DNA from: Auritidibacter ignavus
GTDB lineage: Bacteria > Actinomycetota > Actinomycetes > Actinomycetales > Micrococcaceae
Direction of reading: 5' to 3'
Assembly (NCBI RefSeq): GCF_003703835.1
Contig: NZ_RDQR01000002.1
Span: forward strand, 1-64,000
DNA length: 64,000 bases
Below the pieces are notes generated by a model, which was not told where the DNA came from, ran no database searches, and worked only from the letters and a program-made list of their open reading frames with translations. Shown one piece after another: positions 30,336 to 45,144 of the stretch; the stretch's first letter is position 1; each line of letters opens with the position of its first letter. The translations under genes and the position numbers were made by a program.

Positions 30336-30380
30336 CACCGAGCTCTCGGTGCTCAGCCCAGCTGGAGTGTTACAGCTGGG
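30336..30380. terminator. Two hairpins between the NlpC/P60 gene and the opp remnant
   Basis: CACCGAG-CT-CTCGGTG (30336-30351) follows the NlpC/P60 stop. CCCAGCTG (30357-30364) pairs with CAGCTGGG (30373-30380) and overlaps the stop of the opp fragment. The second hairpin is duplicated at 42680-42703. Neither has a good T-run, so they may act as weak bidirectional terminators. Confidence 0.35.
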
Positions 30381-30566
30381 GTAGGTCGTCGAGTAGATGT
30401 CGGGTGTAGGAATGTGACGGGTTGTCAAGGACGTCATTGACCGGCCCGTGGTCGACAATTTCGCCCTGGTTCAACACTGCCACTTGCGTGGCGATGTGTC
30501 GGGCCAGGGCGATGTTGTGTGTGACGAAGAGTAGGGCCAGCCCGCGCTGGTGGCGCAATTGGTTCA
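30350..30566 (-). repeat. Left 217-bp direct repeat (3' end of the oligopeptide ATPase gene)
   Basis: Identical to 42673-42889 except for one base (A at 30476, G at 42799). It contains the last 65 or so codons of the ATPase gene and its stop. The two copies lie 12,323 bp apart in the same orientation and bracket the foreign segment. They show how the segment entered (recombination or site-specific integration at this gene end) and give it a route out. Confidence 0.9.
30370..30566 (-). pseudogene. Truncated 3' fragment of the oligopeptide transporter ATPase gene
   Basis: Encodes only the C-terminal end (NQLRHQRGLALLFVTHNIAL to HLLDDLPQL) of the ATPase whose intact copy is at 42693-44375. Upstream of 30566 the sequence becomes unrelated. 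One residue differs (Val instead of Ala in VLNQGEIV). It has no start of its own; the open frame that continues to 30936 is unrelated sequence. Confidence 0.85.
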
Positions 30567-30859
30567 CGCCCTGGGCGGTTTTCAGATGAGTCTCGACGAC
30601 TAGATGACTAGATACGGGGTAGGTTACATTGTGAATACAGGCCCTATCGAACCAAAGGATCGGGTGCACTATGAGCGATGAGCTCATTGCACTAAGAAGA
30701 ATATTAAACATGATCGCGTAACGAGTCGGCACGAACAACACGCACGAAAACGGTGTCTCGATCCTCTGGCTCCGTGCAATGCAAAGGCTTTCCGGCCACT
30801 GTGGGTTCGAGGCACTACTGCCTCGGCGTCGCCACCGAGGAATCAAAGGAGAAGAATCA

Positions 30860-31691
30860 GTGACCAGAGAGCGACGAGTTGCCGTGATCGGTGCAAGTGG
30901 GCAGATTGGAAGTCTCGTCGCGCGTGCACTTCCCAACGTGGTATTCGAGTCGTTGCCATCTCGCGCCTACGAAGCGATGCCCTCTCCACTGGCGAGCTTT
31001 CCCATTGTTAGATCTCATCGTATGAAACCGCCGAGCTCAAGCGAGGAGTGTCCAGGTTTGGTCCGTTCCATGGTGTCATCGACCGAAAGCCGCCCGATTC
31101 CGCCGGCTTTCCTCGACAATCTCTATGTGTACGGTCGCGCCACCTTACCGATAACGGAGTCGCACCCGATGGGACCCTGCAGTGGGAAGGGAACCGCCAG
31201 GTTGGAAGGGACGAAGATTCTTGATCAGGCGCGTCTGGACGGTCACGACGTGGTCGTGTGCCGGGCGGCAGATTTTCTCGATCCGGGTGCAGAGACCACG
31301 GTTATGCCGTGGAGCTCTCTCGAGAAGGTCGTCAGAGGAAGAAAGTGCTCATTCATGTGGTTCGGCAAGCCGGACAACAGGCATTCGTTCGTGTTGCCTC
31401 GCGGTGTTGCCCAGGGGGTAGCTGAAACATGCCTCAGGCCAGATCTCCGGTCCATGCCGACGCTTCACATGCCAGCGATCACCGCGTTTTCCGCCAATGA
31501 CCTATCCAGAGAACTATCCTCTGCGGTAGGTCGCACGTTCAAACCAGCTACTGTGGGGAAAACTTGTTCTCACGGTCGCTGGTAGCTTCAGCGACGCTGC
31601 GCGCGAACAGCGGGAGATGATGTACCAGTTCGACAATGACTATGTCCTCGACGACTCTAAGCTTCGTAGCCGAATGCCTGATTTCCCCTGA
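30860..31691 (+). pseudogene. Decayed NAD-dependent epimerase/dehydratase gene
   Basis: Begins with GTG after AAGGAGAAG and reads RRVAVIGASGQIGSLVARAL, a Rossmann motif of the SDR/NmrA-like epimerases. It continues with recognisable family blocks DNLYVYGRATLPITESHP and VVVCRAADFLDPGAE. Between and after these the similarity breaks up. The frame stops at 31585, while the expected C-terminal block (QREMMYQFDNDYVLDDSKLR) appears in another frame ending at TGA 31691. Several frameshifts and deletions are implied. It sits just inside the island's left end. Confidence 0.6.
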
Positions 31692-31859
31692 AGAACCGTG
31701 GAAAACGTGGTATCGATGCTTGCGTCTAAGGCTTGAGCCTACTGGGTTCCCTGTGCAATGCTCTCGAGACTCGAGGGCTGTCGGGTGACCAGCATGACAG
31801 CCTTGCCCGGGTCATCGGTGAGGAAAACGTCGTAAGTCATCGCCCAGTTTGTCGCGCGT

Positions 31860-32150
31860 TTTGATCAAGACGTGGCGGAATGGTTGGTCATGGATGCTGG
31901 TGGTTCGGCAACTGTGGTCATTCCGAACCATTCCACGTCACCGTCAGCGTCAAAGTTCAGTGTTCAAAGCGTAGCGCCCCCGTCGAGGCCAAATCGGTCA
32001 ACCCGCAAGAGGTGTGGTTGCGAGAGGTGGCTATCGGGACCTGACTTGTTGATGCACGTCAACGCGAACCTCCTACCCTGCGACAGCAAGTATCCGCGTA
32101 TCGGTCCAACCGTTGGGACCCTTGACGCCACAGACGAATCATCTGGTTTA
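31860..32150 (+). pseudogene. Possible IS21-type transposase remnant; rest of 31692-32183 without genes
   Basis: A short stretch in one frame reads AEWLVMDAGGSATVVIPNHS, loosely like the GG(x)4-VVPDNxS region of IS21 IstA transposases. Pieces in a second frame downstream (around APVEAKSVNPQEVWL) could continue it. No full domain, no terminal repeats and no start are seen. It may be a relic of how the island was assembled. The remaining bases of 31692-32183 show nothing I can name. Confidence 0.22.
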
Positions 32151-32183
32151 AAGGCGGTTGAGCTTTTTGGGAAGCTTTAGGGC

Positions 32184-32795
32184 TTACAGGGAAGAGGGGC
32201 CGGGGAGGGCCAATGGTAGTATTCCAAGATTGTGTCCCAAGGTGACTGCATGAGTACGGCTTCTTGCTTGTAGCCGACTACGAAGGTTCTTCACATGAGT
32301 ATGGACCGTGGCTGTACTTACTGAAAGCGTCTGCGCGATCTGGTCGTCTCGTTTGCCCAAAGAGATCTGGTGGAGTACTTCCTTCTCGCGTGCCGTGAGA
32401 GGGTTCTCTAATATATGATGGCTCAACTTCCGGGCGACTTGGTGCCGCGAGACGTATTCCCCGGGTAATGATACCGAGACGGCCGCGCTGATAATCTCGG
32501 CGGTGTCTAACGGGGTTCCTACTACCACTACTCGGACGGAGCCCAGCGCTATGACCTCATGGGGGTCGGGGGTGGCCAGGAGGATGGTGAGAGCGTCAAC
32601 ATCGCTGTACCATCTGAGCTCGTGTATCACCTGTTGAAGCGAAGGCTCTCCGATGAGAAGTATATTCGGACCCTCAGGAAGCTTGGCCACACCGACGACC
32701 CTGTTATGGCCAATATTAAAGTCTTTCAACAAGCTCTCAACGTTGCTCACGCTTCTGGCTTCGCCAGTACCACAAATGGTGGAGAGAGTAATCAT
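32184..32795 (-). CDS. LuxR-family transcriptional regulator of the island cluster
   Basis: A 203-residue protein with a C-terminal LuxR/GerE helix-turn-helix (LTAREKEVLHQISLGKRDDQIAQTLSVSTATVHTHVKNL, written here as the span of about residues 132-170). The N-terminal part is receiver-like in size but I see no phosphorylatable Asp pattern (ILLIGEPSLQQVIHEL), so it may be an atypical receiver. I use the ATG at 32795: it overlaps the methyltransferase stop (ATGA) and has AAGGAGAAG upstream. It is the last gene of the overlapping minus-strand operon 34429-32184 and probably controls the cluster. Confidence 0.8.
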   Translation of the reverse strand: MITLSTICGTGEARSVSNVESLLKDFNIGHNRVVGVAKLPEGPNILLIGEPSLQQVIHELRWYSDVDALTILLATPDPHEVIALGSVRVVVVGTPLDTAEIISAAVSVSLPGEYVSRHQVARKLSHHILENPLTAREKEVLHQISLGKRDDQIAQTLSVSTATVHTHVKNLRSRLQARSRTHAVTLGHNLGILPLALPGPSSL

Positions 32796-33535
32796 CGTTC
32801 TTCTCCTTGGCAAGTCTTTTGGTAAACCGATACCAGGTTCTTGCTCTGGGTGACGTATGGATTCTTGGCTAGGTCCTCATATCGTTCGAGAAGTTCGAAG
32901 CCAACGCTGGAAGCGAGAATGTCAAGCTCGCGAGGTGCTAACCAGTGGCTCGTCTCGGTGTAAAACGATTGGTTCTCGGGCCCCGTGACTGTGCGGATCA
33001 GAGTTACTTTTTCGGCAACGTGATCGACGAAGGCAGTATCGGTGAGCAGGTGCTGCTCAGTTAGAGGCACCGAAAGGCTGAATGTCTCCGGCTGATCGAG
33101 ATAAATCCGCGGGTCATATGTCTCTAGAATCAAGTAGCCGTTGTCCGCGGTGCAATTAGCTGCTTGAGAGAGAACTCGTTGTTGTTCTTTCCATCCGGGA
33201 ACCATGAATAGAGTATTTGTCACTATCACGCAAAGGTCGAAAATTCCGTGGACTAGCTCATTTCTAAAGTCACCACAGGCTGTAGAAACGTCGTACCCCC
33301 GGGTCCTCCGTTGAAGGATCTCGAGCATGGTTGGTGATAGGTCCAAGGCTGTTATCGAGAAGCCGGCCTCAGCAAGAGGTAGGGTTAACCTCCCAGTCCC
33401 CGCCGCGAACTCCAGCACCGTCACTGGCATGCGGGGTAACGAACTAACGAAGTCGGAAATCAAGTTAACATCATTCTGGACGGAGTGGACGAGTTCATAC
33501 GTTTCAATAGACTCATCGGGGTAGGGTGGCTTCAT
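32792..33535 (-). CDS. SAM-dependent methyltransferase, CypM-like (N-terminal peptide methylation candidate)
   Basis: A 247-residue class I methyltransferase with SAM motif I EFAAGTGRL (42-50) and an acidic residue after the second strand (ALDLSP, D65). Its opening PYPDESIETYELVHSVQNDV and the following DFVSS resemble, as I recall it, the opening of CypM, the cypemycin alpha-N-methyltransferase. The layout after motif I also agrees (ACGDFRNEL, ETSHWLAPRELDIL). CypM dimethylates the N-terminal Ala of a linaridin. It is translationally coupled on both sides by ATGA overlaps, with the SdpA-like gene upstream and the LuxR gene downstream. A different small-molecule substrate cannot be excluded. 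Confidence 0.7.
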   Translation of the reverse strand: MKPPYPDESIETYELVHSVQNDVNLISDFVSSLPRMPVTVLEFAAGTGRLTLPLAEAGFSITALDLSPTMLEILQRRTRGYDVSTACGDFRNELVHGIFDLCVIVTNTLFMVPGWKEQQRVLSQAANCTADNGYLILETYDPRIYLDQPETFSLSVPLTEQHLLTDTAFVDHVAEKVTLIRTVTGPENQSFYTETSHWLAPRELDILASSVGFELLERYEDLAKNPYVTQSKNLVSVYQKTCQGEER

Positions 33536-34083
33536 GGCATACCAGCCTCCAAATTATGAAAGTCGGAAACCAGAACTGGCTCAGGAGCGACGCGTGGTTC
33601 GTAAGATGTAGCGCGCATCAGCATAAATTGCGTTCGTACACTATCCTGAGGATGTTCACCTTTGTGAGTAACGGTATTCAACAATGTCAAATACGCTGTG
33701 CTCAGTTTGACGCGCTGGAAGTCTTGAGTGGATTCGTGGGTTCTCACCAATTCATCGGTCGCGTCAAAAAGGCCCTTCTCCAGGCGGCGATGTGGCGCCC
33801 AAATTAGGTGCGTAAACCTACGCTTTTGACTGTACGTTAGTTCCTGCCAATTTGTGACATCCCCGTTCGGAAGTTGACTGCGGTACACGAGCCTAATTTC
33901 GTGACAAGCTGGGTTAGGAGCAAAGAACCGCGAATCTGGGACCATCAGACCTGTCTTGTCGATTTTGGTGGCCGTTTTCCGACCGATATCAAATTGCGAA
34001 AGCACGGTGGCCGTGGCCCAGATGCCCAGCGTTCCAGCAAGTGTGTACGTGGTGAAGTGGTGGCAGATGCTTGTTGTATTCAC
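33532..34083 (-). CDS. One-TM protein, SdpA-like (partner of the HTTM protein)
   Basis: A 183-residue protein with one N-terminal membrane segment (about residues 9-29) and a soluble part outside or facing the membrane. The block PDSRFFAPNPACHEIRLVYR (49-68) followed by a Trp-rich NWQEL is typical of small proteins paired with HTTM proteins. It recalls the WxFF(T/A)xxPR block of SdpA, which with SdpB matures the SDP toxin of Bacillus. It starts with GTG after AAGGAGG, 8 bases away, and overlaps the methyltransferase gene by ATGA. Its exact role is unknown. Confidence 0.55.
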   Translation of the reverse strand: MNTTSICHHFTTYTLAGTLGIWATATVLSQFDIGRKTATKIDKTGLMVPDSRFFAPNPACHEIRLVYRSQLPNGDVTNWQELTYSQKRRFTHLIWAPHRRLEKGLFDATDELVRTHESTQDFQRVKLSTAYLTLLNTVTHKGEHPQDSVRTQFMLMRATSYEPRVAPEPVLVSDFHNLEAGMP

Positions 34084-34105
34084 TTAAGCGCCCTCCTTCG
34101 AGTGA

Positions 34106-34429
34106 TTATGTGGCCAAAAGTACGTGGCCATTGCCCTCACGATTTTCAGTGAATAGCCGAAGCCATAACTTTGCACGGTGCGCGGCTTGATGGATGGTGA
34201 TGTGTGGGCTGCGTTCAGGAATCGAACGCAGTACTTCCTGAAGTTCCATGCAACTGTCGCTGGCACGAAAAGCCATATAGGGCGGGTTATCAATAGAGTG
34301 CTGTTTTTTGAGCTCCCAGCTACGCTTGAGAAGCCCGGTCAATGTGAGTTCCAAGTTCGCAGGTCGGCAGGCACTTTTTATCTTCTTTGCTGAATTCCAC
34401 TGCGTATTCGCGAGATATTTTGGCCACAT
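34106..34429 (-). CDS. Small protein of unknown function in the island operon
   Basis: A 107-residue protein with Cys21 and Cys60, a basic N-terminus and a likely helical body (MELQEVLRSIPERSPHITIH, then AAHRAKLWLRLF). I consider it real because its TAA is followed at once by the strong ribosome site of the SdpA-like gene, and codon phase is kept throughout. It starts at the first ATG after an in-frame TGA; a clear ribosome site is not seen. It heads the four-gene operon 34429-32184. I do not recognise a family. Confidence 0.5.
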   Translation of the reverse strand: MWPKYLANTQWNSAKKIKSACRPANLELTLTGLLKRSWELKKQHSIDNPPYMAFRASDSCMELQEVLRSIPERSPHITIHQAAHRAKLWLRLFTENREGNGHVLLAT

Positions 34430-34870
34430 TACTTGCCTAATGGCTCAACCTCTTAGAGAGGAAGCGCGTCACTTGGCTCGTCGTAAATGTCTCCGCAGAG
34501 TGCGAATCGCTTGCTCTTACCGAGGCGAGGGATGAGTCACTTCGGTGTTAGAGGAATCAACCAGCGCCAATCCACTGACACATTGTGTCATATGGGCTAC
34601 GAAGTGCGCATCTAACACACCTCGGAAGGAGTGGTTCGAGAAGATCACAACGGTTTTGGTTCGGAGACGGTCGAGGAACCGTTCTGCGGCGCTCTAGTAT
34701 CGCGGGACTGCTCGCGCTTTGAGAGTCGGTATTTTATCTCGATTGTAAAAATGGAAAAGACGTAGAATTTAGATCTCCCGTTGACTCGTAGACTTCCGAG
34801 TGGGCAAGAACCTGAGCTGAGTAGCTCTGAATGAAGAGGGGCGGCATAGTCGGTTCCCGTCAGGACGGGA
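34430..34870. promoter_or_regulatory. 441-bp gene-free stretch with a TGACACA-T-TGTGTCA palindrome
   Basis: No credible gene on either strand. Positions 34576-34590 form a perfect odd-centred dyad, TGACACA-T-TGTGTCA, about 150 bases upstream of the 107-residue gene, so it probably belongs to the promoter of the minus-strand operon 34429-32184. It may be bound by the LuxR-type protein or the response regulator of the island. A TCCCGTC-AG-GACGGGA hairpin (34855-34870) abuts the stop of the HTTM gene and may terminate it, although no T-run follows. Confidence 0.4.
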
Positions 34871-35719
34871 TTATTGTAAGAGGCGGTGCTTCCATGAAAA
34901 ACGAATGGCCTTCGCGACGGAAATGATGGACGGGTAGGTCCCGCAGAAGGCCCAGAAAAACCTGTTCAGCCCCATGAACCGGGCGTTGGCTATGTGGAAC
35001 GCGGCTCCGATGCCGAGCCCTATGGTGCGGAGGGTTTTTGGCATCAGCACTACTGCTGGAAACAGGACTTCGAATGCTGTGACAGTTCGGCTCATGGCGG
35101 CCGCCCTCCACTCTTTCGCGGTCAGGAAACGGTAAAACCTTTCATCGCCGTAGGTTTGTGTTCTAAAAATCCCTTTGAGGGCGCTTCCATCTCGCCACGA
35201 CGGAGAGACGACTTTGGCGACCCCAGATGCAAAGTACGAAAGTAGGCTCTGGAACGCGACAAAGGAACTGAGAAGGGTAGCGTTGCATTCGTTTCGGGGC
35301 ATCAGCTCCGCAAGGGCGCCTGATGAGAATACGATAAAGGACATCTGGTCGGATCCATCGGACCCGTACCAGCCTCGGTAACTTTTTGCCCACAGGAGTA
35401 GTGTCAGGGTGGTTATCGACAGGGTGCGGACTTTTGTCCGTTCCGGGGCAATGATCGTGCCGATAGCTGCCAGCGACCGAAGGAATACCAGATACTGGTA
35501 TCCAGGATGTTCGAAGCATTTGTCCAACTGACGGCCAAGGCGGCCTTGGAACATCGGTAGTGAAGTGCGCCGTAGTCGCCAGGCGAGTAAGGAATCGGAC
35601 TTGACGTCGGCCGGTCGGCTCAATTCTTCTAGCGATCCAACCAAGCTCCCTATCGCTGCTATCCGCGACCCTCGTGTTAGTGCTTGTCCTGGATTTGACT
35701 TGCATGACGAGGAAAACAC
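34871..35719 (-). CDS. HTTM-domain multi-spanning membrane protein, SdpB-like
   Basis: A 282-residue membrane protein with about six hydrophobic segments and HTTM hallmarks: SWRDGSALKGI (174-184) with SYFASGVAKV before it, then FHIANARFMGLNRFFWAF (241-258) and TYPS. HTTM proteins include the vitamin-K-dependent carboxylase membrane domain and SdpB, needed to mature the SDP peptide toxin. HTTM proteins recur in RiPP and bacteriocin clusters. I place the start at GTG 35719, right after GGAAGGAG. A much longer open frame upstream is the shadow of the permease gene. With the SdpA-like protein it probably modifies or matures the cluster's peptide at the membrane. Confidence 0.7.
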   Translation of the reverse strand: MFSSSCKSNPGQALTRGSRIAAIGSLVGSLEELSRPADVKSDSLLAWRLRRTSLPMFQGRLGRQLDKCFEHPGYQYLVFLRSLAAIGTIIAPERTKVRTLSITTLTLLLWAKSYRGWYGSDGSDQMSFIVFSSGALAELMPRNECNATLLSSFVAFQSLLSYFASGVAKVVSPSWRDGSALKGIFRTQTYGDERFYRFLTAKEWRAAAMSRTVTAFEVLFPAVVLMPKTLRTIGLGIGAAFHIANARFMGLNRFFWAFCGTYPSIISVAKAIRFSWKHRLLQ

Positions 35720-35832
35720 AGGTCTCCTTCCGGTATCTTGGCTCCTACATGCTGTTATAGCGCCTGTTGCGTGTGCTTTGGAATCTATTAGAGGGAGTGT
35801 ATTGTGCCTGGTGTGCCAAGCGAGAGCGCGCT

Positions 35833-36540
35833 TCAGCGCCTCGGTTCCCATTGAAAGAGGAACCGTGCCGCAAGGAATGCGAGGCCCACCCACGCTAGGG
35901 TTGGGATGAGTAGCATCGTCATTTCGCCGGTGGCCCCCTCGCTCCATGCCTGGACGATTAGTTCGGCAGCCGCTCCTCCTGGTAGAGAGAGCTTTAAGCC
36001 GGCCATCTCGTCTGTGCCGGTAGCTGCGACCCACGTGGCCACTCCAACCACACCCATGGTAATCGGTAGTACTGTGATTTGGGCACTGTCGGGAGAACTC
36101 GTTATGCCAGCTGTAGCGAGGGCAAGGCCGAAAAACATGGCGTGAGTCAGCAACAAGACAGCGACCACATGCACTGGACTGCTTGGACCGCTGTCCACCA
36201 GTGTTAAGACCATCAGAATCACCAGCGTCTGTGCCGCCGAGAGCACAATGAGTACCAACGAGAGGCCGAGAAGGATGGCGGGATCGCTGAGGGAGGTCGA
36301 CCTCATGCGTTTGAGGAACAAATTCTGGCGTCTTGAAGCCAACGTAGTGGTAGTGCTGGCGTAGACCACGAAAGAAGGGATCACTGCCATGACCAGAGAA
36401 GCGATCACAGGGGTTCCGCCTATCGTGTCGCGGTTCCAATAAAGGAACACGGAAATGCCCAAAGGAATGACTGTTGCCATGAACAGGACCAAAGGGTCCC
36501 TGAGCATCTGGATGAACTCGGCTTTGGCGATAGGTAACAT
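35833..36540 (-). CDS. ABC-2 type transporter permease of the island
   Basis: A 235-residue permease with six probable membrane segments (LVLFMATVIPLGISVFLYW, GLSLVLIVLSAAQTLVIL, HVVAVLLLTHAMFFGLALATA, IPTLAWVGLAFLAARFLF) of the ABC-2/DrrB-like kind. It begins 9 bases after the ATPase stop, with GAGGAG as ribosome site. Such pairs export peptides or give self-immunity to producers. Confidence 0.85.
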   Translation of the reverse strand: MLPIAKAEFIQMLRDPLVLFMATVIPLGISVFLYWNRDTIGGTPVIASLVMAVIPSFVVYASTTTTLASRRQNLFLKRMRSTSLSDPAILLGLSLVLIVLSAAQTLVILMVLTLVDSGPSSPVHVVAVLLLTHAMFFGLALATAGITSSPDSAQITVLPITMGVVGVATWVAATGTDEMAGLKLSLPGGAAAELIVQAWSEGATGEMTMLLIPTLAWVGLAFLAARFLFQWEPRR

Positions 36541-36549
36541 CTGGTCTCC

Positions 36550-37428
36550 TCAGTTGCTCAGTGTTCGGAAAATATCGTCGAGGCTTGCTGGCTGGACCGA
36601 TAAGTTGCTGATCCTTATGGCCTTCTCCTCTGACCATTGCAGAAGTTTGAACAGATCGCGCTGAGGGTCCTGAGTTTGTAGTTTCCAGCCACGATCCGTG
36701 GTATCTACGGGGACAGGAACTTCGCCACGATATTCGGGGGTGCTGAAACTGATCGTTGTGGGGAACGATCCTGCCAGCTGGTTGAATGTGCCTTCAAGCT
36801 CGAGTCGGCCTCGGTGCATCAATCCAATTCGATCGGCATGCTCCTGGGCTTCCTCGAGATAGTGGGTGGTCAGCACTAGCGTGGCGCCTTGGTCACGGAG
36901 CTCGCTAACTACCTGCCAGAGTTCGTCGCGTGCTTCTATGTCAAGGCCGGTGGTGGGCTCATCCAGGAAGACAAGCTCGGGGTCACCGTAAATTGCTGTT
37001 GCGAAGTCCAGGCGGCGTTTTTCTCCCCCAGAGAGTTGAGAAACCTGGACGGTGTCCTTATGGGAGAGCCCGACTCGTTGAAGGACGCGGTCTTTATCGT
37101 CTTGCCGGCCGCTCACGGCCCCAAAGAGTTCAACGGTCTCCCCGACCCTCAAAGACGGAGCGAATCCGCTCTCCTGCAACATAATCCCCATTCGGGGTCG
37201 AACCGATCTGCGATCACGGGGATCTTGGTCAAAGACTCGAATCGTACCGGAACTTGGACGCCTGTGCCCCTCGATGGTCTCCAGTGCCGATGTCTTCCCT
37301 GCGCCGTTTGTGCCTAGAAGAGCGTAGAGTTCGCCTTGCTGTACTTCGAACGAGAGCTCCTCAACCGCCGTGAACTTTCCATAGCTCACGGTGAGCTCTT
37401 GGACGTCAATGACCTTTCGTGTAACCAT
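36550..37428 (-). CDS. ABC transporter ATP-binding protein of the island
   Basis: A 292-residue CcmA/DrrA-like ATPase: Walker A LLGTNGAGKTSALE, Q-loop near GIMLQESGFAPSL, signature LSGGEKRRLDFA, Walker B ELVFLDEPTTGLD and switch His in LTTHYLEEAQEHADR. The start at ATG 37428 (MVTRKVIDVQELTVSYG) is chosen from the family N-terminus; GGGATGAAGA lies upstream. The frame remains open to 37530 but without family similarity. It forms an operon with the permease and perhaps the HTTM gene, and likely exports the cluster peptide or protects the host. Confidence 0.87.
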   Translation of the reverse strand: MVTRKVIDVQELTVSYGKFTAVEELSFEVQQGELYALLGTNGAGKTSALETIEGHRRPSSGTIRVFDQDPRDRRSVRPRMGIMLQESGFAPSLRVGETVELFGAVSGRQDDKDRVLQRVGLSHKDTVQVSQLSGGEKRRLDFATAIYGDPELVFLDEPTTGLDIEARDELWQVVSELRDQGATLVLTTHYLEEAQEHADRIGLMHRGRLELEGTFNQLAGSFPTTISFSTPEYRGEVPVPVDTTDRGWKLQTQDPQRDLFKLLQWSEEKAIRISNLSVQPASLDDIFRTLSN

Positions 37429-38890
37429 GTCTTCATCCCAGCAAAATTGGCGGAGTGGCCCCAGTGACGTACTGTCATGAGTTAGGGACGCTTTCCGAAA
37501 AAGAGGTTGTGTGCCGCGTTTGCGACACACAACCCGGAGCCTCTCGCCTCAAGTTACGGGCGGAATCTAACCGACGCATCACGTGAAACTGATCGCAAGA
37601 CAAGCTGGCCTGGTCGGTTCACCGGTCGGAGCCTGACGCCGCGAGTGAGGATGGGCGGAGTGGCATCCAGGCTGATCTGTGGGCCACTATTGAAGGTTTG
37701 AGCATTGTGGTGAGTCGGTCATTGAGCGACCGGCCACTCAGGGTGCGGTCAGGGAGGTTCGGGCTGGTGGTGTGTTTGTTCAGCCCACGTTCCTGAAGCT
37801 GAGTGAACACATTCGCTTCGAGGGGCCGGCAGGACGGCGTTTTCGTGTCATCGTGATGCAATGTGGACGCCCGAGTCAGTCTGTGGCCCACGCGACGACT
37901 GTGCTCAGGAGGGCGAATCAACCTTGCCGGTTTTTTCACGAACGGTAAGGGAGATCGAGAACCGCCAGCGCAGCGGGTTGTCGTGGAGCCCTGAATACGT
38001 GTATCGCGCACGTGGTAGTTACTAGTCGACCCGGTCACGGCTACGAGGTTTTTCTTTCTAGGGTCGCGACCCCTTGAAGAAGATCTTCATACCGGTTACC
38101 CAGCCGGTCACGTCGTGATTAATGAACTGGTTGTTGTTATCGAAGGCGCGCCCGTTGAACTCGAGCAGCACTTGAGAGACTGTGGTAGCAAACTCTGCTA
38201 AGACATGCAGGTGTGCGTATTTGCGTATCGATCGGGCGATCTTTCATATCACGTTGATATGTGAGTCAGGTTCAGGGCCAGAAGAACTCCTCGTGTAACG
38301 TCGGCCCTCGGTTCGCAAGAGTGTTGCCGCTCAGAAAAACCATGCGGGTCCGCGACCGCCCCACTTACTGGCCCGAGCTGGAGCGATTGGGGTAGTAACG
38401 GCGAGGGCCGCGCCGCGCAATCGCCTCGAACCGTACTTCGCAACTACAAGAGCGAGGTGGCGTTCGGTTGTCTCCAGCGATATCCAGTAGTAACTGGCCC
38501 AGAAACATATCGGTGTATCGGCGCTACTAAAACACCACCTCCCCGTATGCTACGGGATCTACCGGGGCCTGCATCTCGGTGGCCAGAAAAATTCGACACT
38601 GCGTTCGGCCTGTGGCCCAAAAGCGATGAAGGACTTTCAACGGCCTGAAGCACGGGTTGCGTCCTGAGACTGGGTGATACCCGAGTTATCTCTTTGCCTG
38701 CCGATGTCGGCGACGGGGTCGTTGAGTAACAAGCTTCCGTACTCCTTGAACGCCCTTGCGTACTGGAACGCGTACGTCTTTCATGTCTTCGCCGTCGCCG
38801 ACATCGACAACCCACGTCCCATAGCTCTCGGCGTCACACCGACGGGGCTGTCATCGGTGCAGGAGGAATCGAAGGTGCTTCGCGAGCATT
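37429..38890. other. 1.46-kb stretch of decayed sequence with two gene remnants
   Basis: No intact gene. Open frames here are short, overlap each other and lack ribosome sites. Two stretches look like the ends of former genes and are listed separately (38058-38243 and 38674-38922). The part 37500-38057 shows no recognisable coding or repeat structure. Confidence 0.5.
38058..38243 (-). pseudogene. C-terminal remnant of an unidentified gene
   Basis: Minus-strand frame open from a TGA at 38246-38244 to TAG at 38060-38058. It encodes about 61 residues with natural-looking composition: KYAHLHVLAEFATTVSQVL, then EFNGRAFDNNNQFINHDVTG and a basic end, GMKIFFKGSRP. No start codon lies near the beginning. 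It reads like the tail of a soluble protein whose front has been lost. I do not recognise the family. Confidence 0.3.
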
Positions 38891-38922
38891 TTAGCGTGGC
38901 CCTCCGCCACCTTGTAGAGTGA
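38674..38922 (+). pseudogene. C-terminal remnant of a second unidentified gene, overlapping the peptide gene
   Basis: An 82-codon plus-strand frame whose second half is protein-like (VADIDNPRPIALGVTPTGLS, then EESKVLREHFSVALRHLVE) while the first half is not. No ribosome site. Its last 32 bases overlap the 3' end of the convergent precursor-peptide gene, so one of the two genes may have been cut at this junction. Confidence 0.3.
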
Positions 38923-39160
38923 GTTGTGTGCCGTTAGGTTGAAGAGCACTCTCACGAGCCCTTATCAGTTCGTTGACTGAACCATAGGGTGCGACCTCGG
39001 CCGACACGGTAACTGGGTTGCTATCGGTAAACCCGAAGATAGCGGTAGTTGCTGTAGTCGCTGTGGTCGCGGGAGTTGCGAGAGTCGGCATCGCAGTAAC
39101 GGCGTGCCCGACTTCGCCGATATTCAGTGTGTCCGCAAAATGTGTCAGGTCATTTCGCAT
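38891..39160 (-). CDS. Candidate RiPP precursor peptide with Thr/Ala-rich linaridin-like core
   Basis: An 89-residue peptide with a very good ribosome site (GAGAGGAGG, 8 bases before ATG). Residues 1-27 look like a leader (MRNDLTHFADTLNIGEVGHA, then VTAMPTL). Residues 28-44 read ATPATTATTATTAIFGF, containing an (Ala-Thr-Thr) triple repeat. Cypemycin, a linaridin, has a core that starts ATPATPT, in which Thr become dehydrobutyrines and the N-terminal Ala is dimethylated by CypM. A CypM-like gene lies in the same island. Residues 45-89 (TDSNPVTVSAEVAPYGSVNE and on) have no clear counterpart, and the end overlaps a remnant, so the C-terminus may be altered. It could instead be another RiPP type. 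Confidence 0.6.
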   Translation of the reverse strand: MRNDLTHFADTLNIGEVGHAVTAMPTLATPATTATTATTAIFGFTDSNPVTVSAEVAPYGSVNELIRARESALQPNGTQLTLQGGGGPR

Positions 39161-39202
39161 GATCTAACCTCCTCTCAGGGATGTCCTACTTTACGTGCCC
39201 GG

Positions 39203-39226
39203 GTGTTGTCCGGACATTTCCAACAC
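39203..39226. promoter_or_regulatory. Nested palindrome between the peptide gene and the sensor kinase gene
   Basis: GTGTTG (39203-39208) and CAACAC (39221-39226) form an inverted repeat, and TGTCCGGACA (39207-39216) is a perfect dyad inside it. It lies about 45 bases upstream of the peptide gene start, in the divergent promoter region shared with the two-component system (start 39392). A binding site for the cognate response regulator is likely. The kinase side has TAAAAT (39316-39321) as a possible -10. Confidence 0.45.
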
Positions 39227-39391
39227 TAATCGGTTGCAAGGCTGAAAATATCCCCAGAAATGTGGATCTTTGAACCGTATTTCTAGAACAAGCCCAACTT
39301 CACTGGCTCGCTGGATAAAATAGAGTGAGTTACGACTCGCTCAAAGTCTTCCCGCCCGAGAGGGCAGTAGGTGCTGCCAGGAGGAGAATCC

Positions 39392-40528
39392 ATGGCTGAC
39401 AACAAAAGAAACAGGAACGAAACAGAAGAATCCATTGGAATCTCTGGGACGTGGCAGCGACATTCTCTAGAGCGTGTCCGGACCAATACGACCCAGGGAC
39501 TGTTGCTAGGACTGGCTGTTTTTTGGGCTGCGGGGCTGCTTACCGCACTTGACCCCCTCTGGCACGTGCTGATTCTCTTGCCCAGCGCGACACTGTCGTT
39601 TTGCGTCGCACTACGGTGGGCGAAGCTCAGTCGAAACCTCTTGGTGTGGTCTTTGCTAGTCGGCGTTCTTACTGCCGGGGTAGCCAGCTGGTTGGCAGTA
39701 AGCCCCTTAGCCACGGGCGGATTGTTGATTGCAGGCGCTGCCTACCTCTCCACGCTACCGAGAATGCGAGTCGTGGCCACTGCCGGTCTCCTAGGTGTCG
39801 CGGTAGGGCTGGCGCTCCTCTCGACAGTGCATGAGCCGGATCAGGCGCCTATTTATGTGACGACTACTGTGGTTTTTGGCCTCTTCTGGGTGGCCGTCTT
39901 CTTCGGGTCTCGGTGGACAGTGCGGGTTGTGCGGGAGCTCGACAATGCCCACCGAGCCCAGACTCAATTGGCCCTTTATCGGCAGAAATTCCGTTTCGCG
40001 GCTGATTTACATGATATTCAGGGGCACACATTGCATGTAGTCAAGATGAAAACGGCCCTTGCTCAGCGACAGATGGACGACGCTCCTGACGCTGCCAAGC
40101 AGGAATTGGACGAGGTCCGTGGTCTTCTGACAGATACGATCTCGCAAGCCAAGTCACTTGCCTATGGAGAACGCCGTCTAACCCTGCAGGGCGAGTTGGA
40201 GAACGCGAAAAACCTCCTTGAGGCTACAGGTGCTACGGTCAATGTTCACCACGCTGATGCCGATCTCCCGCTCGAACGTGAAGAACCAGCAAGCTTGGTG
40301 CTCAGGGAGGCGACAACGAACATTTTGCGACACTCCGACGCTAGACAGGTGGAAATAACGGTCAACTCCAACATCGTGGGAATCAGCAATGACGGAGTCA
40401 CTTCTGAAGCGTCAGAGCTGAGTGGGCTTGACGCCCTTAAGAAAAGAGTCTCAGCGTTTGGCGGTACGCTCATGGCGCACTGTGAAGAAAACCGGTTCAT
40501 CACTGAACTTCGATTCCCCACACGTTAG
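39392..40528 (+). CDS. DesK-type sensor histidine kinase
   Basis: A 378-residue membrane kinase. About six hydrophobic spans fill residues 30-175 (for example GLLLGLAVFWAAGLLTAL). The dimerisation/phosphoacceptor helix of the HisKA_3 type is AADLHDIQGHTLHVV with the phospho-His in DLHD. The ATPase part has LREATTNILRHSDARQVEI (N box) and a reduced G region ISNDGVTSEASELSGLDALKKR. The ATG at 39392 follows AGGAGGAG. Such kinases beside ABC exporters often sense the exported peptide or membrane damage. The response regulator follows 14 bases later. Confidence 0.9.
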   Translation: MADNKRNRNETEESIGISGTWQRHSLERVRTNTTQGLLLGLAVFWAAGLLTALDPLWHVLILLPSATLSFCVALRWAKLSRNLLVWSLLVGVLTAGVASWLAVSPLATGGLLIAGAAYLSTLPRMRVVATAGLLGVAVGLALLSTVHEPDQAPIYVTTTVVFGLFWVAVFFGSRWTVRVVRELDNAHRAQTQLALYRQKFRFAADLHDIQGHTLHVVKMKTALAQRQMDDAPDAAKQELDEVRGLLTDTISQAKSLAYGERRLTLQGELENAKNLLEATGATVNVHHADADLPLEREEPASLVLREATTNILRHSDARQVEITVNSNIVGISNDGVTSEASELSGLDALKKRVSAFGGTLMAHCEENRFITELRFPTR

Positions 40529-40542
40529 AAAGGCATGGCAAC

Positions 40543-41145
40543 ATGATTCGTGTTGTGCTTGCAGACGACGAAAACCTCCTGCGCGCCGCAATGGCACAAA
40601 TCTTGCCCTATGAAGGAGAAATAGAAGTTGTTGCAGAAGCCCAGACCGGGCATGAAGCCGTTGAGGCTACTGTGACTTATCGGCCCGATGTATTGGTTCT
40701 TGATCTTGAGATGCCTGAGATCGACGGCCTCGAGGTGCTAGAGACAATTCAGCAACAGCTACCACGTCAGCCAGTGCTCATGTTAACCCGGCACGCCAAA
40801 CCTGGAGTGCTACGCAAGGCTCTTCGGCTGGGAGTTAAAGGGTTCGAGAGTAAATCTGCCGACCCTTCTCATATCGCTGACGTCATTGAGGCCGTTCATC
40901 AAGGAAAGCGCTGGATCGGCTCCGACGTCTCAGCATCGGCGGTAAGCGACGACTGCCCACTTACAGAACGTGAGAAAGATGTCTTACGCGTAACCCGAGA
41001 AGGATTCTCAGCGTCAGAAATCGCGGCTAAACTTTTTCTCTCTCAAGGCACCGTACGGAACTACCTTTCAAGTGCCATAGCCAAAACACATGCAACAAAC
41101 CGGCACGAAGCAGCGCGATTCGCTCGCGATCTTGATTGGATATGA
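40543..41145 (+). CDS. NarL/DesR-type response regulator
   Basis: A 200-residue regulator: receiver domain with acidic pocket ADDEN (8-11), phospho-acceptor D54 in VLVLDLEMPEIDG and a conserved Lys-containing region (KGFESKSADP). A LuxR helix-turn-helix covers residues of about 138-188 (LTEREKDVLRVTREGFSASE and on). It pairs with the DesK-type kinase just upstream and probably regulates the peptide gene or the ABC exporter. Confidence 0.92.
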   Translation: MIRVVLADDENLLRAAMAQILPYEGEIEVVAEAQTGHEAVEATVTYRPDVLVLDLEMPEIDGLEVLETIQQQLPRQPVLMLTRHAKPGVLRKALRLGVKGFESKSADPSHIADVIEAVHQGKRWIGSDVSASAVSDDCPLTEREKDVLRVTREGFSASEIAAKLFLSQGTVRNYLSSAIAKTHATNRHEAARFARDLDWI

Positions 41146-41322
41146 GCCCCTAGTCCCCATCGTGTTAGTTCCTCTCTTTGCGGGGCATCTGACAACCGAC
41201 CGTGACGTTCCTACAATCAGACCCGGGGCCGTAGTCTCGGTACTCCACCCTGAGGTTCGTCCTGGCCTTCGGTACCAAAATCCTCGGTGACGTGGTGTCA
41301 CTACAGCTGGGGGGGTCAGACG

Positions 41323-41598
41323 ATGAACACTGGAAACATGTCTACTCTTCGAAATTTGCTCTATGTCCTGATGGCTGTATCCGTGTTGTTATGCGTGCCG
41401 GCCCTTCTCGTGCATCTGTCCGTAGACCCGCTACCAGGGTGGGTGGAAGCTATTGCCAGTTCACTAGGTGGGCTTGTGTGGTTCGCTCCGGTCGTTGTTT
41501 TTCTGTGTGGACTGGCACTAGGCTGGGCTCAGAGGGAGAGTCACCGAGACCAGCAACGATCACAGGCACCATCTCGTTTCCCTCAGGACTCGGATTAG
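41323..41598 (+). CDS. Small two-TM protein, possible immunity protein
   Basis: A 91-residue protein with two membrane segments (LLYVLMAVSVLLCVPALLVHL and LGGLVWFAPVVVFLCGLALGWA) and a polar, basic tail. I use ATG 41323, after a G-rich stretch; ATG 41338 is an alternative. It lies in the island after the two-component genes. Small two-TM proteins at this place in bacteriocin clusters often confer immunity, but that is inference. It resembles the protein at 42192-42452 only in architecture. Confidence 0.55.
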   Translation: MNTGNMSTLRNLLYVLMAVSVLLCVPALLVHLSVDPLPGWVEAIASSLGGLVWFAPVVVFLCGLALGWAQRESHRDQQRSQAPSRFPQDSD

Positions 41599-42191
41599 AG
41601 AGGGTGCCGGCACCCTCTGCCAGTACCTCCGGAGAACTGTGCGTGTGAAGAAGCGATCGTTGTGCATTACGTTCGGGCTTGAATTGCACGTGTTAGCCTC
41701 CCTGGCGCTTTCGACCGGCGCCATCCGGTTCCGTATCACGCCGAGAGTCACCGGTGGGAATGTGATGTTACGCCCACCTGTGGCGACGCGTGGGCTCCCG
41801 TTCTCTCTATTCCTGCCTTGCTTCCTTTGGCCGTTGCCCAGCTGGTACCTGTACTGGATCTGGCAAATTGCTGTTGGTCCGCAGGTCAAAGACTCTTGGA
41901 TTCTGGTCTATTCTCAAGAAATGAACCAAATGGGTTTCAGAACCGATATATTGCCGGCTTTCAAGAGCGACAACGTCAGTTTTTCGAGGAAAACCTGCCG
42001 AACGTGTCATGAGAATGGGAATCCTAGGCCCGTCAAGAAGCGCCTGTCCCATGACAGCAAAAACAGAGCGACGATTCACCCCGACCCTGCGCATGGTGCG
42101 CTATCCACCGATGGCGCCGTGCGCAGGAAAGTCCAACTCATACGTCTCGGGGGACCGGCAAGGGAATTTTACTCCGTGAACCGGACTTGTC
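41599..42191. other. 593-bp stretch without a recognisable gene
   Basis: Open frames on both strands here (up to 219 codons starting at 41639) have no ribosome site, no domain-like patterns and compositions typical of non-coding frames. No repeat or hairpin of note was found. Confidence 0.5.
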
Positions 42192-42452
42192 TTAGAGGTC
42201 TTTCTTCGAGTCCTGTTTTTCCAGTGCTTTCTTCGCGTTCTTATGGACTACCGAGGCCAGGATGCCTACGCCTACCACCACGACTGTTAGCACAATAGCT
42301 GCACCGGATCCCTGCTCCGGAAGGACCTCAACAGCCGGGGCTATGGGATCCGGAAGGCTACTGGGATCCATCACGTTATTGAGGACAACAAACACCGCGA
42401 CCACCAGGGCTATGATCATGACTACAAGCGAAACAAAGCGTACTGCTTGCAT
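42192..42452 (-). CDS. Small two-TM protein at the island's right end
   Basis: An 86-residue protein: N-terminal membrane segment (FVSLVVMIIALVVAVFVVL), a Pro/Asp-rich loop (MDPSSLPDPIAPAVEVLPEQ), a second membrane segment (AAIVLTVVVVGVGILASVV) and a Lys-rich tail. I start at ATG 42452 after AAGGAGAGC; the frame extends to 42491. Function unknown; immunity or a stress-related membrane role is possible. It is the last gene before the right repeat. Confidence 0.6.
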   Translation of the reverse strand: MQAVRFVSLVVMIIALVVAVFVVLNNVMDPSSLPDPIAPAVEVLPEQGSGAAIVLTVVVVGVGILASVVHKNAKKALEKQDSKKDL

Positions 42453-42672
42453 CGTCGAGCTCTCCTTCACTAGGGGTAATTGCACTCCCATCGTGGGCGG
42501 AATAGGCGAGTTGCTCTAGTGCCACTGTGTCATGACCTACTCGTGAAGTCCTGAGATTCTCTCTCAACGCCGAGCACAGTCTTATCTTGAGCCTCGAGTG
42601 AAGAGTCCCGCCATCAAGGGGATATCGTGTGGTGGGAACGCATTTGTCGCTACCAGGAGTGGCCACCTGTAA

Positions 42673-42889
42673 TGCTCAGCCCAGCTGGAGTGTTACAGCT
42701 GGGGTAGGTCGTCGAGTAGATGTCGGGTGTAGGAATGTGACGGGTTGTCAAGGACGTCATTGACCGGCCCGTGGTCGACAATTTCGCCCTGGTTCAACGC
42801 TGCCACTTGCGTGGCGATGTGTCGGGCCAGGGCGATGTTGTGTGTGACGAAGAGTAGGGCCAGCCCGCGCTGGTGGCGCAATTGGTTCA
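42673..42889 (-). repeat. Right 217-bp direct repeat (3' end of intact oligopeptide ATPase gene)
   Basis: Copy of 30350-30566 with one substitution (42799). It is part of the intact ATPase gene, so this side of the island keeps the functional target gene. Confidence 0.9.
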
Positions 42890-44375
42890 ACAGGGCCAGG
42901 ATGGAGGCTTGCACGGAGACGTCCAGGGCTGAGGTGATTTCATCGCAGACCAGCATCGAGGGTGCGTTGACCAGGGCGCGGGCGGTGGCTGCGCGTTGGC
43001 GTTCCCCTCCGGAGAGGTCTCCGGGCCGGCGGTCGTAGAAGCTGGGATCCAGCTGGACAGCTTCTAGGGTTTCTTCCACCACAGCCCGGTGTTGGGAGGA
43101 AGGTAGCCGCTGGGACATCCGCAACGGTACGGTCAGGGATTTCCCGATGGATTGGCGCGGGTTTAGGGAGGAGAAGGGCGACTGGAAGATGTACTGGATG
43201 TCTTGGCGGGCATCGAGGCTACGCTTGCGGGCCCGGTGTTCCAGTGCCTGGCCCCGTAGCTGGATGGTGCCGGTGTAGTCCGGGTTGAGCCCGGCGATCG
43301 ATCGGGCCAGGGTGGTTTTACCGGAACCGGATTCGCCGAGTAATAAGGTCGATTCCCCGGGATCGATGGTGAGGTTGATTCCCTTGAGCACCTCATGGGA
43401 CCCGTAGGACATCCGCAACTCCCGCACAGCCAGCAGGTGTTGGCTGGGCCCGGATTTCTCCTGCGGTTGAGACTGTCCCTGGGCGGCGGTGGAAGGCTCG
43501 GTGATCGCGGGCGCCTGGTTGGTTTCGGTGAGATTTTTCTTTCCGGCTAGATCGGGTACTGCCCGCAGGAGGCGTTGGGTGTAGGGGTGGTCGGGTTCGT
43601 TCAGGATTTTGCGCCAATCGCCGATTTCCACCAGGTCACCGCGTAGCATGACCGCCACGCGGTGGGCCAATTCGGCGACCACCGCCAGGTCGTGGGTGAT
43701 GTAGAGCGAGGCCACATCGTGGCGGGCGGTCATTTCCCGAATGGTGTCGAGCACGTGGGCTTGGGTGGAGACATCCAGCCCGGTGGTGGGCTCATCGAGC
43801 ACCAGCACGTCGGGGTTCATAGAGAAGGCCATGGCAATACCGATGCGTTGTTGTTGGCCGCCGGAGAGCTGGTGTGGCCAGCGACGCTGGTAGGAATCAT
43901 CATCGGGCAAACCGACATCGCCTAAGACCTGGGCGACTCGCTGGGCGCGCTCGGAGGAGCTGGAGCCGTAGCCGTGGATGTCGAGTACTTCCCGGATTTG
44001 GTCGCCCACCCGCATGGCCGGGTTAAGGCTCAACGCCGGGTCTTGGGGGATGTAGGCGATGCGTTCGCCACGCAGGGCTCGAATGCGGTCATCGGTGAGT
44101 TCAATGACGTTGATTGGAGTTTCGCCAGTGCGTGGGTAGAGGGTGATCTCGCCACCGGTCTGGGCTAGCCCGGTGCGGAAGTGGTTCAGACAGGCAAGCC
44201 CCACGGTGGTCTTACCGGAGCCGGATTCTCCGACCAGGGCGAGGATTTCGCCACGGTGTAGATCCAGGTCCAGGTCGTGAATGATCTGGTGGCCGGTGCC
44301 GGTGGCGGAGACGCTCAGCCCCCGGATGGTGAGCACCACGGTGTCAGTTGCGCTGGTGGGATGGTCGGGACTCAT
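42693..44375 (-). CDS. Peptide ABC transporter ATP-binding protein, two ATPase domains fused (DppD-DppF-like)
   Basis: A 560-residue protein with two complete ATPase domains that energise oligopeptide/dipeptide import. Domain 1: LVGESGSGKTTVGLACL, LSGGQQQRIGIAMAF, DVLVLDEPTTGLD. Domain 2 from about residue 300: LLGESGSGKTTLARS, LSGGERQRAATARAL, MLVCDEITSALD. A Gln/Ser/Pro-rich linker joins them. The ATG at 44375 overlaps the upstream permease stop (ATGA); the longer frame to 44717 is a shadow of the permease gene. It is the last gene of the opp operon, and its 3' end is the target duplicated around the island. Confidence 0.9.
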   Translation of the reverse strand: MSPDHPTSATDTVVLTIRGLSVSATGTGHQIIHDLDLDLHRGEILALVGESGSGKTTVGLACLNHFRTGLAQTGGEITLYPRTGETPINVIELTDDRIRALRGERIAYIPQDPALSLNPAMRVGDQIREVLDIHGYGSSSSERAQRVAQVLGDVGLPDDDSYQRRWPHQLSGGQQQRIGIAMAFSMNPDVLVLDEPTTGLDVSTQAHVLDTIREMTARHDVASLYITHDLAVVAELAHRVAVMLRGDLVEIGDWRKILNEPDHPYTQRLLRAVPDLAGKKNLTETNQAPAITEPSTAAQGQSQPQEKSGPSQHLLAVRELRMSYGSHEVLKGINLTIDPGESTLLLGESGSGKTTLARSIAGLNPDYTGTIQLRGQALEHRARKRSLDARQDIQYIFQSPFSSLNPRQSIGKSLTVPLRMSQRLPSSQHRAVVEETLEAVQLDPSFYDRRPGDLSGGERQRAATARALVNAPSMLVCDEITSALDVSVQASILALLNQLRHQRGLALLFVTHNIALARHIATQVAALNQGEIVDHGPVNDVLDNPSHSYTRHLLDDLPQL

Positions 44376-45144
44376 CGGTTGGCTACTTTCTCCGCGGTGG
44401 TCTCGGGGGTATTGGTCTTCGTGGCCAGTCGGGAGGCCTTCACCGGCAGGGCGGTGGCACGTGCCAAGGCGTCGGCCAGCAGGTTGGTGCCGATCGAGTA
44501 GGTCAGGCGTAGCCCGGCTTCCACGGCCAGCGGGCCGGTGATGTTGGGGAAGATCTCGCGAACCAGGATCTGGGTACGCGGGACCGCATAGAGTTCGGCG
44601 GCGCGGATGTAGTCTTCGGACGTGACTGCCAGCGTGGCAGCCCGGGCCACCCGGGCGATGCGGGGGGGGCGTGGGTGAAGCCGATGACCAGGATGAGCAC
44701 CAGGGCGGAGGGACCAAAGATTACGATGGCCAGCATGGCCAGAATCAGTTGGGGGAAGGCCAGCACCACGTCGTTGACGCGCATGATGATCGCGTCGGTG
44801 ATCCCACCGGCGTAGGCGGCAATCATACCCAACAGGGCGCCGAGGACCAGACCGATGGCGGTGGCGGCCGCTGCGCACAGGAGCAACAGGAGCCCGCCCC
44901 CCACGAAGCGGGAGAGGACCGACCGGCCGAGATTATCGGTACCCAGCAGCGCGTCGTTGGTGAACGGCAAACCGACGAATTCGGTGGTGGAGTATCCGGT
45001 GATCTCCGGGGCGAAAAAGTAGCCGACCAGGGCAATAAGCAGCACCAGGCCAGTGAGGATGACACCGATTTTGCCTTCGGGTTGAGCCCAGATGCGGGCC
45101 ATGAGTGGGTCGGGTTTGGAAGCGGAGGTTTTCAGCTGGCTCAT
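44372..45144 (-). pseudogene. Oligopeptide transporter permease (OppC/DppC-like), broken
   Basis: The N-terminal frame from ATG 45144 is a normal OppC start (LLIALVGYFFAPEITGYS; LLGTDNLGRSVLSRFVGG; VLAFPQLILAMLAIVIFG) up to LVIGFTHAP. There a run of eight C (G on the plus strand, 44662-44669) shifts the frame. Six or nine would be in phase. The rest continues in the next frame: RIARVARAATLAVTSEDYIR, AAELYAVPRTQILVREIFPN, then RLTYSIGTNLLADALARAT. Normal OppC proteins have a further membrane segment and a PPxPDWG-like block between these last parts, so an additional in-frame deletion is likely. The transporter may therefore be non-functional. Confidence 0.8.

Follow-up and report, generated by a model that had tools for sequence, protein, structure and literature searches.

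The small gene at 38891-39160 is best explained, with a probability of about 0.78, as encoding a linaridin-like RiPP precursor from a branch whose precursors share a conserved C-terminal segment, the pathway of which is probably decaying in this genome. That it is a genuine RiPP precursor gene we regard as settled by sequence comparison, because a profile of two homologous precursors ranks its peptide first and these homologues are syntenic. The branch appears, from the sequences compared, to be small and undescribed, with the C-terminal segment setting its precursors apart from described linaridins.

The precursor gene and its homologues

Within the window, i.e. the entire 64,000-nucleotide stretch that was analysed, the precursor frame translates to MRNDLTHFADTLNIGEVGHAVTAMPTLATPATTATTATTAIFGFTDSNPVTVSAEVAPYGSVNELIRARESALQPNGTQLTLQGGGGPR, and its residues 28-44 read ATPATTATTATTAIFGF, exactly as the earlier note had it. 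The strong ribosome site described there is likewise present, as an AGGAGG placed 7 nt ahead of the ATG (within the upstream sequence AGAGGAGGT); a promoter scan upstream of the precursor detected nothing. The leader end falls inside a PTLATP form of the PxxxTP motif, where cleavage is predicted by analogy with linaridins. Of the small ORFs from 29 to 45 kb, none but the precursor has a P..[AGST]TP motif; it occurs as one copy in the genome and contains zero Cys, and no Pfam or NCBIfam model matched it.

Table 1. Precursor gene, its parts and the surrounding cluster in the window
Feature	Position	Strand	Basis
Precursor peptide gene	38891..39160	minus	89 aa ORF; leave-one-out profile; homologues in L049 and L050
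Ribosome-binding site AGGAGG	39168..39173	minus	sequence; 7 nt from ATG
Leader, residues 1-27 (MRNDLTHFAD...AMPTL)	39080..39160	minus	alignment to the homologues' leaders, MQNxITxFAD...PVLAT
Putative core, residues 28-44, Thr/Ala repeats ATPATTATTATTAIFGF	39029..39079	minus	alignment; extent inferred
Conserved C-terminal (follower-like) segment, residues 45-73, DS...SVNELIRARESAL	38942..39028	minus	L049, L050, L138
Window-only extension, about 16 residues beyond homologues' ends	38891..38941	minus	alignment; GC3
ABC exporter ATPase (DrrA-like)	36550..37428	minus	Pfam/NCBIfam; 58-60% identical in L049/L050
ABC-2 permease	35833..36540	minus	PF01061; 45-49% identical in L049/L050
HTTM membrane protein (LinG-like)	34871..35719	minus	PF05090 E 9e-9; 54-56% identical to L050; tree 100/94
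Alpha/beta hydrolase (LinE-like) remnant	34175..34687	minus	L049 + L050 hydrolase profile, i-Evalue 5e-11
LinL-like / SdpA-like protein (DUF5819 relative)	33532..34083	minus	PF19136 E 3e-5, below cut-off; 52-55% identical in L049/L050
SAM methyltransferase (LinM-like by position)	32792..33535	minus	nearest NCBIfam model daptide_MTase, below cut-off
LuxR-type regulator	32184..32813	minus	PF00196; homologues at same place in L049/L050
Sensor histidine kinase	39371..40528	plus	PF07730; 42-43% identical in L049/L050
Response regulator	40543..41145	plus	PF00072/PF00196; 63-64% identical in L049/L050

Downstream on the precursor strand follow the genes for the ABC ATPase, the permease, the HTTM protein, the DUF5819-like protein, the methyltransferase and the LuxR regulator, and the kinase and response regulator genes lie divergently upstream. 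With the HTTM protein as query five loose relatives were obtained, and an HTTM alignment scan of 84,980 species genomes identified two close ones, Brevibacterium sandarakinum DSM 22082 (locus L050, HTTM 54% identical) and Microbacterium marinilacus YM11-607 (L049, 50%); wider HTTM sampling recovered no relative closer than these. Each gene of the window cluster has a counterpart in both loci, with 42-64% identity (32-45% for LuxR), and beside the HTTM, LinL-like and methyltransferase genes of these loci lie homologous precursors (tblastn E 1e-5 and 3e-6), congruent with the earlier proposal of a precursor peptide whose core starts like that of cypemycin. Indeed, when the 770 small ORFs of the window were scored with a leave-one-out profile of the L049 and L050 sequences only, the window peptide ranked 1/770 (E 8.3e-16; next 0.19). 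In the alignment the leader (MxNxxTxFAD...G...) is followed by a P-x-L-A-T junction and a Thr-rich block, after which come F-G-x-x-D and the tail V-x-x-L-x-x-A-R. At the junction the window has PTLATP and L050 has PVLATP, whereas L049 has PVLATI, with the final Pro replaced by Ile.

Two kinds of neighbouring gene were also observed. A beta-lactamase-fold (PF00144) gene, which might have a role in maturation or immunity, adjoins the cluster in L049 (14406-15290) and L050 (13535-14389), with no match in the window. Small membrane proteins, possibly immunity proteins, adjoin the kinase and exporter genes in L050 (7109-7426) and L049 (7740-7988), being 33% identical to each other; those of the window (41287-41598 and 42192-42491) resemble them only in size and hydrophobicity.

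Relationship to linaridins

In a published type B linaridin cluster the HTTM and alpha/beta hydrolase genes are separate, and LinL and the PxxxTP motif are present (PMC9927463); LinHL of the alpha/beta-hydrolase type is cited as acting as an epimerase when linaridins mature (PMC10406935). The window has a LinL-type protein and the motif at the leader-core junction; the combination of HTTM protein and alpha/beta hydrolase (LinH, or LinG plus LinE) is incomplete here, both being intact in L049 and L050. Moreover, small ORFs with PVLATPA or PVMATPA occupy the same place, beside HTTM-hydrolase-LinL genes, in HTTM loci of many actinobacteria. In the type A locus L045 a cypemycin-family precursor (NF033752 E 1e-25) lies beside an HTTM-hydrolase gene and a DUF5819-like gene, and it is on gene position, as in that locus, that our equation of the DUF5819-like protein with LinL rests.

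Because of its gene set, its motif and the HTTM tree (below), the cluster is, by sequence, linaridin-like. We stop short of classing it as an established linaridin member, since NF033752, NF033402 and NF033403 match none of the window, L050 and L138 precursors (L138 is described below), and since the comparison of profiles with other PxxxTP precursors, at 78-89% probability, rests mostly on the motif. With the type B linaridins corynaridin and legonaridin the cluster shares the separate HTTM (LinG) and hydrolase (LinE) genes, a LinL-like protein, an ABC transporter, the PxxxTP motif and a Thr-rich core (PMC9927463). It differs from them in having a methyltransferase gene and no recognised short-chain oxidoreductase gene, in a conserved segment after the core of its precursor and in a hydrolase that is a remnant. 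Type A linaridins (cypemycin/grisemycin) have in common with it the core start ATPAT, the leader motif P-x-x-A-T-P and homologous HTTM-hydrolase and LinL proteins (checked against L045); in contrast, HTTM protein and hydrolase are unfused in the window-type cluster, and the window system is without a C-terminal Cys, a decarboxylase (LinD) or an NF033752 match.

A conserved tail behind a variable core

The 45 residues after the putative core had been called unusual, whereas about 29 of them align with a C-terminal segment, FGxxDS...SVxELLxAR, that is conserved in the window, L049 and L050 precursors. The homologues stop six residues beyond the A-R, and the window precursor continues well past that point. 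A fourth precursor was recovered in genome G764 (L138 10004-10264, E 2e-5) when 13,358 small ORFs of HTTM loci were searched with a three-precursor profile, built without the L138 sequence. Its core, ATPAYAAYATGVAVTFTLGIISDAVG, is unrelated, yet it has a similar tail, TDADDV...ASADQLIRARIDGLQ; a second precursor of the L138 locus ends SELLALRAERLTRG, a tail resemblance that was judged by eye. The follower segment alone, with the window left out of the profile, gave a weakly significant match (E 0.029, rank 1/770).

As the tail is conserved behind a different core in G764, the constant ends and variable middle of these sequences suggest a leader-core-follower precursor, where the C-terminal segment is most likely a second recognition or follower part. 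Tentatively, and at a little under even odds, we picture an undescribed linaridin-like branch with bipartite precursors, in which constant recognition parts would flank the core on either side and both be cut away. Such leader/core/follower precursors are not reported for linaridins in the literature covered. Alternatively, and in our estimate rather doubtfully, the mature peptide comprises everything that follows P-x-L, about 50 residues in relatives, with no follower and with the conserved C-terminus as part of the product, for example as a receptor- or immunity-binding tail. Linaridins generally retain all residues after PxxxTP, a separate protease gene was not identified and no precursor of this branch lacks the C-terminal segment, points that all suit a long product. 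However, the tail is constant while the core differs completely between L050/L049 and L138, which is the usual sign of a recognition part and speaks for the bipartite precursor. The conserved tail behind a variable core, found in cultured strains of Microbacterium and Brevibacterium, would offer a direct handle on substrate recognition by HTTM-LinL.

A tail resembling SVxELLxAR was also noted in Dokdonia (Bacteroidota), where an ORF near an HTTM-DUF5819 pair (L122 5372-5737) ends ECSIDELIDLRSSLI; this may be chance.

Other identities of the precursor

It is very improbable that the peptide is not a linaridin but the precursor of an SdpC-like toxin, with an SdpAB-like pair for its maturation. 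The HTTM and DUF5819 membrane proteins are indeed shared with the SdpABC (sporulation-delaying protein) system, resembling SdpB and SdpA (TIGR04033 E 0.001), and many HTTM-DUF5819 pairs without hydrolase and methyltransferase were met in the survey of loci. Nonetheless, the HTTM tree joins the window protein to those of L050 and L049 (support 100/94), and thus to hydrolase-bearing loci, outside the pair-only SdpB-like clade; the latter comprises 44 HTTM proteins with DUF5819 partners and no hydrolase match, with one exception. Unlike SdpABC, the window cluster has a methyltransferase and the remnant of a hydrolase, and its precursor bears the linaridin motif and is unrelated to SdpC models, matching no Sdp model. 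The tree largely refutes this identity.

Less probable again is a daptide-type RiPP, suggested by the methyltransferase, which among NCBIfam models scores best with daptide_MTase (E 2e-22; 80 bits, where the cut-off is 175). Daptide precursors have an invariant Thr at the C-terminal end (PMC10036551), which window-type precursors lack, and neither an aminotransferase nor an alcohol dehydrogenase nor an RRE protein was found in the cluster with Pfam and NCBIfam. With the MpaB/C/D enzymes and the C-terminal Thr missing, the identity is refuted as far as gene content allows, the likeness to daptides being the nearest named methyltransferase model.

That the frame is a chance ORF or the linker of an ordinary secreted protein has a negligible probability: Ala/Thr simple repeats can come from composition, and the peptide retrieved no relative when 295 genomes of the same family, viral contigs and plasmids were searched, but the same leader, Thr block and tail recur in syntenic clusters of two other families, which rules it out, and the linker, foreseen in the earlier note as the refuting outcome, was not found. 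Those weak same-family peptide matches that were examined proved to be matches of composition, with no related gene around them.

Loss of the hydrolase and probable decay of the cluster

Between HTTM and LinL, where L049, L050 and other linaridin-type loci have an alpha/beta hydrolase, the window slot (34084-34870) holds no intact gene. The match to the hydrolase profile is confined to this gap, and the fragment observed there misses its N-terminal third, carries in-frame stops and has NHSFRG in place of the GHSxGG elbow. A hydrolase is present in 37/37 surveyed methyltransferase-bearing loci; no other part of this genome gave more than weak matches to alpha/beta hydrolases of a general kind (E 1e-5). 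The extension of the precursor has a GC3 of 0.35, compared with 0.52-0.55 in its remainder.

Since the hydrolase is a stop-ridden fragment and the precursor overruns the ends of its homologues, the cluster in this genome is probably decaying, and for the same reasons the pathway would probably yield an incompletely modified product or none. Open frames are retained for the precursor, HTTM, LinL, methyltransferase, ABC exporter, two-component and other regulators, so that a partial decay, or a hydrolase working in trans, is possible. With precursor, HTTM, LinL and methyltransferase kept and the hydrolase lost, the window copy amounts to a natural deletion mutant that could reveal the hydrolase step.

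In the same-family genome G133 an HTTM homologue with an in-frame stop was noted (L140 8834-9283), near which lies a precursor-like ORF with PMTATPA (9688-10059); this is possibly another decaying cluster.

A proposed pathway

Linaridin enzymes dehydrate and epimerise peptides using membrane proteins of which little is yet understood. From the homology, synteny and motif conservation observed, we infer the following chemistry and cleavage for intact relatives. The leader would dock on a membrane complex of the HTTM protein, the alpha/beta hydrolase and the LinL-like protein, where the Thr-rich core would be dehydrated to dehydrobutyrines and possibly epimerised. Cleavage of the leader is predicted within the P-x-L|A-T motif, i.e. 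after Leu27 in the window precursor, upon which the new N-terminal Ala would be dimethylated by the adjacent methyltransferase; the latter, by analogy from its LinM position, is a possible enzyme for such N-terminal dimethylation. The product would then leave via the ABC exporter, with the divergent two-component system probably in control. For the window precursor, too, such dehydration, cleavage, dimethylation and export would be the most likely course, at present or in the past.

Genomic setting

The whole cluster is contained in a 12.1-kb stretch (30567-42672) flanked by 217-bp direct repeats (30350-30566 and 42673-42889, 99.5% identical) that copy the 3' end of an opp-like ABC gene (42693-44717); the stretch resembles a genomic island whose target end was duplicated. 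Its G+C, at 0.51-0.58, is lower than that of the flanks, mostly 0.60-0.65, in keeping with horizontal acquisition.

Between the precursor and the ABC gene lie 1.36 kb (37531-38890) with no recognisable gene, the corresponding distance in L050 being only about 200 bp. Plasmids and phages gave no nucleotide match to this interval, and genes of the relatives gave no convincing one. The convergent gene remnant claimed earlier at the 3' end of the precursor, a plus-strand ORF overlapping it (38674-38922), matches no Pfam or NCBIfam model, and in view of this and of the missing nucleotide matches it is unsupported as a gene or remnant. Farther along the window, 57849-63404 encodes a repetitive surface protein of 1851 aa, in which the tandem repeats are nearly identical and the C-terminus carries a sorting-like signal, LASTGA.
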